From an archaeon (GTDB lineage Archaea; Nanobdellota; Nanobdellia; Woesearchaeales; UBA11576), in assembly GCA_020052935.1 (NCBI GenBank), contig JAGVOD010000018.1:1-35047 (forward strand): 35,047 bases of DNA, in the 5' to 3' direction. Below the pieces are notes generated by a model, which did not search any database, had not been told where the DNA came from, and was given only the letters and a program-made list of their open reading frames with translations. Each line of letters opens with the position of its first letter. Within the stretch, counting starts at the first letter, position 1. Positions 17,468 through 20,360 of this stretch are shown piece by piece. A program made the position numbers and the translations under genes.

Positions 17468-17504
17468 GGTTTGGGTGGAGGTAAAAATACCTTATCAAAG
17501 GCAG

Positions 17505-17653
17505 CACCACCGCCAATAAATGCTTAGGCAGTGGCGCCGTGAATCTGCGAGGCTTTTCAACAACTCCCTCGCGGGCGTCGCGGGGGGATGCCCCCTACGG
17601 GGACGCAGCCCTTTTGATTACAACGACGCAAGCCGAGCTCACGCGCCACTGCC
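17505..17653. repeat. Structured intergenic element B (family with 20206-20332)
   Basis: The 127-bp unit 17527-17653 is closed by GGCAGTGGCGCCGTGA (17527-17542), which pairs with 17639-17653 apart from one unpaired base. Inside lie the box GTGAATCTGCG (17539-17549), a stem GCGTC/GACGC (17575-17579 with 17602-17606) and the core GGGGGATGCCCCCTACGGGG (17583-17602). The core can fold as GGGG-ATG-CCCC or as CCCC-TAC-GGGG. Just upstream, CACCACCGCC (17505-17514) can pair 8 of 10 with the left arm 17527-17536, an alternative to the outer stem. A second copy with the same length and plan is at 20206-20332. It occupies the 299-bp gap between L34e and TFE. No ORF is convincing there. Confidence 0.75.
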
Positions 17654-17685
17654 AAGTATAACCTAGCGCTGCAGCCTTTAGAAAG

Positions 17686-17697
17686 CTTTTTAAATAG
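17686..17697 (+). promoter_or_regulatory. TATA box of the TFE gene
   Basis: CTTTTTAAATAG lies 32-43 bp before the ATG at 17729, giving a short leader with AAGGT as a weak ribosome binding site. Confidence 0.5.
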
Positions 17698-19876: not shown

Positions 19877-20104
19877 TTAGCGTTTCTTTGCCTTTCTCTT
19901 GCCGAGCATCGTTTCTATCTTCAGCTCTTCCTTCTCTATCTTGGTCTCTTCAGACTCTATCTTGTGTGTTATCTTGAGAAGGTTCTCGTCCATCCTTGCG
20001 ATGCGTCTTTCGAGCAGCACGAGAATTCGTAGGCTGTAGACGATTGCCGCAAGGGTCCCTATGATTATTGCGAGGGTAACTCCTTCAAGTCCTAGTCCTG
20101 CCAT
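19877..20104 (-). CDS. Small single-pass membrane protein with coiled-coil tail
   Basis: A 75-residue protein: membrane segment at about 8-31 (VTLAIIIGTLAAIVYSLRILVLL), then a charged amphipathic helix to the end (MDENLLKITHKIESEETKIEKEELKIETML) and a basic tail KRKAKKR. The start is firm because AAGGAGG lies 8 nt before the ATG. It precedes the PD-(D/E)XK gene and probably shares its transcript. The family is not recognised; it may be a membrane tether or oligomerisation partner. Confidence 0.75.
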   Translation of the reverse strand: MAGLGLEGVTLAIIIGTLAAIVYSLRILVLLERRIARMDENLLKITHKIESEETKIEKEELKIETMLGKRKAKKR

Positions 20105-20195: not shown

Positions 20196-20360
20196 ACGAA
20201 GATATGCGGCGCCACCGCGAATTTGCGGAGCGTCTTTCAGTTGAATGATTGCACAGACAAGGGGGATGCCCCCTACGGGGAATGTCTGTTTCTTTGGAAA
20301 TAATTAACAAGCGTAGCCTCGCGTGGCGCCGCCTTGTGGTATTCGGAGTATTGTCTTCGT
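20196..20360. repeat. Structured intergenic element C (family with 17527-17653)
   Basis: The 127-bp unit 20206-20332 has the same plan as element B. The outer stem GCGGCGCCACCGCGA (20206-20220) pairs with 20319-20332 with one unpaired base, the box GCGAATTTGCG is at 20217-20227, and the same core GGGGGATGCCCCCTACGGGG is at 20261-20280. The stem flanking the core is ACAGACA/TGTCTGT (20253-20259 with 20283-20289), a different sequence from B but in the same place. A further outer pairing ACGAAGA/TCTTCGT joins 20196-20202 and 20354-20360. It fills the 297-bp gap between TrmB-like regulator 2 and the small membrane protein gene. No ORF is convincing there. Confidence 0.78.

Follow-up and report, generated by a model that had tools for sequence, protein, structure and literature searches.

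The window analysed here is a 35,047-nt stretch of a woesearchaeal genome assembly (contig JAGVOD010000018.1). Two units in it, designated B and C, lie in a neighborhood whose gene order around both copies (L34e, TFE, IF-2B-like, PD-(D/E)XK, small protein, TrmB) is conserved in the family. As the initial annotation had described, both units are 127 nt long, carry a common core at offsets 56 and 55 and the box GYGAATYTGCG at offsets 12 and 11, respectively, and have stems that differ in sequence yet are self-complementary. Both fold better than shuffled sequences on the + strand (z of -4.4 for B and -3.7 for C), and the 20-nt core, found twice in the window, did not appear in any of 100 shuffles. 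The segment upstream of B that had been proposed to compete for its left arm, as in a switch, turned out to be the left arm of an outer nested hairpin, which is seen in several copies. A TATA-like CTTTTTAAATAG is located at 17686-17697, just past the end of B and upstream of the TFE gene. We also noted a 75-aa protein encoded at 19877-20104 on the - strand, which has no Pfam match and contains a stretch of 40 to 43 residues whose identity to the counterparts in five other genomes of the family, 88 to 100%, greatly exceeds that of its neighbors.

Table 1. Features of copies B and C in the window
Feature	Position	Strand	Remarks
Outer second hairpin layer of compound copy B, remnant left arm	17500-17526		Layer with intact right arm in L005, L055, L063, L078, and L045
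Element B, inner hairpin unit of a probable MITE copy, compound subtype	17527-17653	+	Model score 79.5 bits, E 1.8e-17
B, P1 left arm GGCAGTGGCGCCGTG	17527-17541	+	Pairs with CACGCGCCACTGCC; P1 of this class fully (100%) paired in 29 relatives
B, P2 stem and core, GGGCGTCGCGG - GGGGATGCCCCCTACGGGG - ACGCAGCCC	17573-17611	+	
B, P1 right arm CACGCGCCACTGCC	17640-17653	+	
B, outer layer, decayed right arm ending in GCGCTGCAGCC	17654-17676		Aligns, with substitutions, to the corresponding arm of L063 and L005
Element C, probable MITE copy, main subtype with ends of the IS66-type class	20206-20332	+	Model score 133.8 bits, E 1.8e-30, C being part of the training alignment
C, P1 left arm GCGGCGCCACCGCG, one bulged C	20206-20219	+	Pairs with CGCGTGGCGCCGC at 20320-20332
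C, conserved left motif TTGCGGAGCG, GCGNAGC minihairpin-like	20223-20232	+	Nearly invariant columns in alignment A2
C, P2 stem and core, ACAGACAAG - GGGGATGCCCCCTACGGGG - AATGTCTGT	20253-20289	+	
C, conserved right motif AAGCGTAGCC	20309-20318	+	Nearly invariant columns in alignment A2

B is 85 to 88% identical to copies L063 and L005, both of which are compound, with a second hairpin layer around the unit; B itself keeps only a decayed outer layer. C has no recognizable outer inverted repeat, and neither the combined scan for TIRs and TSDs nor the check for outer repeats detected a TIR pair or a TSD on either copy. B and C are old copies whose outer repeats have decayed. Their former mobility, like that of the 18 C-type copies (of 29) lacking an outer inverted repeat, is deduced from better-preserved relatives that carry TIRs and TSDs, and their assignment to a MITE family from homology with copies having both, the missing ends being read as a sign of age.

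The core-bearing element is absent from both window sites in three relatives (G004, G006, and G008), and a locus of a genus mate (L200 of G001) is an insertion relative to the matching host stretch (L051), which represents the empty site. The family therefore displays insertion polymorphism at orthologous loci. In G009, a member of another genus of the family, the L34e-TFE gap holds a coreless MITE that has IS5-type ends and the 9-bp duplication TATTGAGGT, and the other window gap holds a hairpin whose right end resembles GTATTTGTTTAGC. When G001 and G002 were searched for orthologous copies that had diverged in place, the candidate pair (L176/L058) proved to have different element subtypes in one intergenic gap and so has no bearing on such divergence.

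Copy number and distribution of the family

Allowing up to three mismatches, we counted 116 cores in the host genome, 59 of them in forward and 57 in reverse orientation, compared to zero for the reversed-pattern control. Further copies, which the initial annotation had proposed to seek in the host and its relatives by means of a covariance model, were found with a model trained on 29 C-type copies (alignment A2), C among them, all of one end class. When the best 150 candidates per genome were scored, at least 131 copies were detected in the host, scattered over both strands, and 15 to 41 in four relatives, namely, 35 and 17 in genus mates G001 and G002 and 41 and 15 in G007 and G009, which belong to another genus of the family. 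The same search of G003, G004, G005, and G006 returned none, so that copy number among relatives is very uneven, ranging from 0 to more than 130. Taking about 140 bp per copy, the family accounts for approximately 1.1% of the host genome, which is a small one.

A loose core pattern was positive in 22 of 59 relatives, all from Woesearchaeales, and a stricter one in 13 of 281 genomes of the class, again only within Woesearchaeales, where its occurrence is patchy; no core was found outside this order among the searched genomes of the class. The named carrier records are MAGs of Woesearchaeota and Nanoarchaeota, in agreement with the DPANN setting assumed at the outset. Plasmid and phage collections searched with B gave no match. 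A lone match on a viral contig (L108) has the core without the surrounding P2 or P1 and was taken as chance.

In the host, 62 of 67 copies lie outside ORFs of at least 90 aa. The gaps between copies and adjacent genes have medians of 39 and 46 bp, and there is no recurrent protein-coding neighbor. No two host copies are more than 89% identical. About 18 copies in the host (G000), with model matches of 177 to 197 nt (for instance, C12:18690-18878 and C53:2323-2510), exceed the others by some 50 nt. In L001 and L120 the extra length consists of two small hairpins directly 3' of the core (ACACTTAAAAATCC..GGATTTTTGGTGTGCC and AAAAACGC..GCGTTTTTGAGCA). Three loci have the left P1 arm swapped for another repeat, TTTCTGAGCGTGCTCAGAAATGCnnnGCATTTCTGA (L043 at 1519 and L065 at 1519, both on the - strand, and L066 at 1502 on the + strand). 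Finally, G273 carries inverted pairs of the core at a constant spacing of 129 bp (C5:12076/12205, C17:5579/5708, and C24:11430/11559), perhaps forming a palindromic composite unit.

Pairing and covariation in the inner module

The core has a consensus of about 19 to 20 nt, GGGG-NNG-N-CCC-H-TNC-GGGG, which is nearly invariant across the order. Its C run is complementary to both flanking G runs; when the 3' one is used, a UNCG-type loop results on the + strand, equivalent to GNA triloops on the other strand. The + strand loops of the fetched loci were CTACG (73), TTACG (31), CTTCG (11), ATCCG (11), CTCCG (6), and others, with a single UGCG (TGCG) loop in L192; most of these loci were fetched by a pattern fixing the T and C of the loop, so the constancy of the loop is partly built in.

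The claim that pairing is kept while the sequence changes was borne out by the covariation test that the initial annotation had called for. In the 29 C-type copies, the covariation score was 0.345, compared to 0.117 for shuffled alignments and at most 0.118 for slid versions, and none of 500 shuffles matched it; 16 of 26 pairs were changed on both sides. In P1, all 377 of 377 cells were paired, 9 of 13 pairs being altered on both sides, and not a single G-T or mismatched cell was present despite changes at nine pairs. In P2, 79% of the cells were paired and 7 of 8 pairs were altered on both sides. The A2 copies were picked by the GCGNAGCG and AGCGNAG motifs, an alignment that omits the other end class and two copies with the left arm replaced, so that the figure of 100% holds for copies having this P1. 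A looser count over all host copies, in which G-T ranked equal to Watson-Crick pairs, gave 3.8% G-T; the complete absence of pairing intermediates is thus specific to A2.

Comparing the arms of P2 within and between copies gave the same picture. A left arm paired with its own right arm reached a mean of 6.84 in the host, versus 3.55 when arms were swapped between copies, and the corresponding values in other genomes were 6.16 and 3.53; among 74 host copies, 55 distinct P2 left arms were found. Since the C-type model also detects copies of the other end class, at 84 to 94 bits (e.g., C34:29785-29917 and C73:1880-2006), the inner module is homologous in both end classes.

In line with the initial view that no known RNA family is involved, no Rfam family matched the window or six other copy-bearing loci, save for the RNase P RNA gene that neighbors one of the copies. 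This archaeal gene (RF00373, 103 bits, L040:1603-1931 on the - strand) adjoins an element copy at about 1423-1593 that has an exact 8-bp duplication.

Ends, duplications, and matching transposases

The well-preserved core-bearing units are 130 to 215 bp long, have no transposase gene, end in TIRs, and are accompanied by TSDs. Two end types occur around the common inner module: GGCTCTGT..AAA with 9-bp TSDs and GTATTTGTTTAGC with 8-bp TSDs. A scan for TIRs with TSDs around 121 copies gave 22 candidates, many of them exact, some of the weaker ones possibly being due to chance. The clearest units, of 163 to 165 bp with near-perfect TIRs and exact 9-bp duplications, are found twice in L084 and once each in L088, L096, and L105, and L103 has a longer unit with TIRs and a TSD; GTATTTGTTTAGC-ended units with 8-bp duplications are present in L040 and L103. 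Examples of the duplicated sequences are gattgaacc and ataaagaga in L084, gtgcaccca in L088, ataaagttc in L103, and aaaaattg in L040, each present twice. Similarity between sibling copies stops at the TIRs. In G009 we counted 91 GTATTTGTTTAGCA ends, several of which bound units of 139 to 351 bp with exact 8-bp TSDs; the GTATTTGTTTAGC-ended units of this genome have a P1 of the same type and no core. This burst of GTATTTGTTTAGCA-ended units is probably recent and would be useful for studying transposition.

Single GGCTCTGT ends were traced in four genomes. In G322 (the same as G038), L155 shows GGCTCTGTCCTGAATCTCC as its end, after which a transposase gene begins, and in L154 (G322) the end GGCTCTGTCCTAAGAGTC comes after the 3' part of a transposase gene; these sequences are the right and left ends, respectively, of MITEs in the same genome (L088). 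Taken together, the two different ends found on the MITEs of this genome recur in L155 (5' end) and in L154 and L164 (3' end). A complete insertion sequence of 883 bp, with ends GGCTCTGTAGAAAA..TTTTCTACTGAGCC, was found in G055 (L159). Its 270-aa transposase matches Pfam DDE_Tnp_1 (E 1.4e-11) and NCBIfam IS5_2 (E 9.7e-35), the latter at 120 bits, below the cutoff of 140. The 5' leaders of the IS5-type elements (L155 2496-2600, L151, L152, and L159) contain two successive hairpins, perhaps a protection from outside transcription, the second of which (e.g., GGTGGAGGCGAATCTCCACC) ends at the ATG of the transposase.

For the other end type, 11 bp separate GTATTTGTTTAGCA from the 3' end of an IS66 transposase frame of 453 codons in L201 (NCBIfam E 1.2e-67, Pfam E 1.7e-32). 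No complete IS66 element with both ends was recovered and the far end of L201 was not found, so this link stands on one end. In the host assembly, which is 85% complete, no transposase with matching ends was found. The IS6 family was considered as a source and rejected, PF13610 matches occurring in 4 of 20 genomes and none of them near element ends. An insertion sequence of about 965 bp in G001 (L161/L162, 1470-2437), with ends GGCTTGTTTGCAAGTT, a 295-codon transposase-like frame, and 8-bp direct repeats, has ends unrelated to those of the element.

Origin of the copies and relation to known systems

These data make it very likely that B and C belong, as old copies that are immobile on their own, to a family of GC-rich hairpin MITEs dispersed in Woesearchaeales. 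A complete unit would consist of a TIR, a spacer, P1, GCGNAGC, a covarying P2 with the core (GGGG-NNG-N-CCC-H-UNCG-GGG), a second GCGNAGC, P1', sometimes a GNA-capped hairpin, and the other TIR. Such units would be moved in trans by IS5-type and IS66-type transposases, would insert mostly into intergenic gaps, and would then decay from the outside in, which is presumably how B and C lost recognizable TIRs and TSDs. Of the three readings initially put forward for the two units, the miniature mobile repeat is thus upheld by TIRs, 8- to 9-bp TSDs, empty sites, and transposase-bearing elements, whereas a structured RNA lacks a specific pointer.

As a structured RNA, the element would be transcribed from the + strand, the UNCG-capped core with P1 and the covarying P2 forming a regulatory or trans-acting RNA that mobility merely spreads. 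The strong covariation would suit such a molecule, as would the + strand loop, which is always of the UNCG type in the fetched loci, most of them fetched with the loop partly fixed. With small ORFs allowed, the + strand also seemed co-directional with the flanking genes (19 copies in the +,+ class versus 5 in the -,- class), but this bias was gone after removing ORFs created by the element itself. Stricter filters gave 19 versus 14 in the host (p 0.49) and 21 versus 15 elsewhere (p 0.41), a longer ORF limit 23 versus 12 elsewhere (p 0.09), and neither the consistent gene orientation nor the conserved locus expected of an ncRNA or riboswitch was observed. Given the lack of a significant orientation bias, the uneven copy number, and the empty sites in three relatives, nothing except the fold itself speaks for a cis-acting RNA, and without any Rfam match either we regard this explanation as highly improbable. 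Chance inverted repeats can be discounted altogether, as no core is expected in the window and the covariation is out of reach of shuffling. An integron attC site was also considered and, in view of the TIRs and TSDs, put aside.

Two further explanations accept the hairpins as such. If each copy were a domesticated DNA- or protein-binding site or a transcription boundary, with hairpins kept by selection in place, one would understand why P1 is perfect in all 29 A2 copies even though an outer inverted repeat is missing from 18 of them, why the core is nearly invariant across the order, and why the copies lie so close to genes. This would, however, put more than 130 loci under selection in a family that is missing altogether from related genomes. 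Copies are found in all classes of gene orientation, and template switching predicts perfect arms in the absence of selection (PMC8794818). We therefore regard domestication as improbable. Dispersed hairpins with conserved small-loop motifs, and the inverted pairs of fixed spacing in G273, also recall REP or REPIN sequences, in which case single-stranded hairpins would be recognized and mobilized by a RAYT (Y1 tyrosine transposase) or an enzyme of the IS200/IS605 type; exact 8- to 9-bp TSDs, together with TIRs like those of DDE-type IS5 and IS66 elements, render this barely credible.

Within the MITE interpretation, the inner hairpin may have stayed paired because template switching copies one arm to the other, because the fold is needed for transposition, or because it is selected in place. 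Template switching between the arms of inverted repeats can create and maintain hairpins without selection (PMC8794818). All three processes would keep the stems paired; we favor template switching combined with a structural requirement during past mobility, to which we give an even chance.

Several observations count against the MITE interpretation as it stands: the missing TIRs and TSDs of B and C and the missing outer repeats of 18 of the 29 C-type copies, the lack of host copy pairs above 89% identity, the failure to find a transposase with matching ends in the host assembly, and the sharing of the core by two end types, which plain mobility does not explain. To our knowledge, MITEs do not normally carry one elaborate covarying core across the ends of two unrelated transposase families. 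An alternative, which we consider unlikely, is that the inner module (P1, P2, and the UNCG-type core) is itself a functional unit. As a folded RNA or single-stranded DNA, it would benefit whichever MITE contains it, for instance through control of transposition or by attracting a replication or repair factor of the host, and it would have been passed between IS5-type and IS66-type elements across the order.

What is new here is the family, its covarying core, and one inner module common to two unrelated end types. In the searched library, no literature describing this element or combining DPANN with miniature inverted repeats turned up, and the element may be the first MITE family described in DPANN. 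A fold common to two transposase end types makes it testable whether nonautonomous elements carry a fold serving them, and perfect stems in worn copies offer a natural test case for maintenance by template switching versus selection. They also caution that covariation by itself is no proof of a functional RNA.

Among known systems, the IS5 superfamily (DDE_Tnp_1) shares with the present MITEs the TIR GGCTCTGT..AAA and 9-bp TSDs, the TSD length of the IS903 group, and the ends of L155 and L154 are those of MITEs in their genome. IS66-family insertion sequences generate 8-bp TSDs, as found on the C-type MITEs, which also have the TIR GTATTTGTTTAGC seen beside the IS66 transposase gene of L201. 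In contrast to both groups, the MITEs of this family carry no transposase. REP/REPIN and BIME sequences are likewise dispersed extragenic palindromes, many of the present copies being worn down to a hairpin, but this family is much longer and has the TIRs and TSDs of DDE transposons, unlike the 20- to 40-bp palindromes without TIR or TSD that define REP/REPIN. Prokaryotic MITEs such as QMITE2 of Coxiella and Chunjie of Geobacter (PMC10969869), like the present family, are short, noncoding, multicopy, and intergenic, form long hairpins, have TIRs of about 13 to 17 bp and TSDs of 8 to 9 bp in well-preserved copies, and are accompanied by matching insertion sequences. Worn copies that lose TIRs and TSDs, and MITE transcripts that form hairpins, have also been described already (PMC10969869). 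Compared to these, the woesearchaeal family is GC-rich rather than AT-rich, has an inner fold that covaries around a 19-nt core with hardly any variation, includes nested compound copies, and carries its inner module under the ends of two unrelated transposase families.
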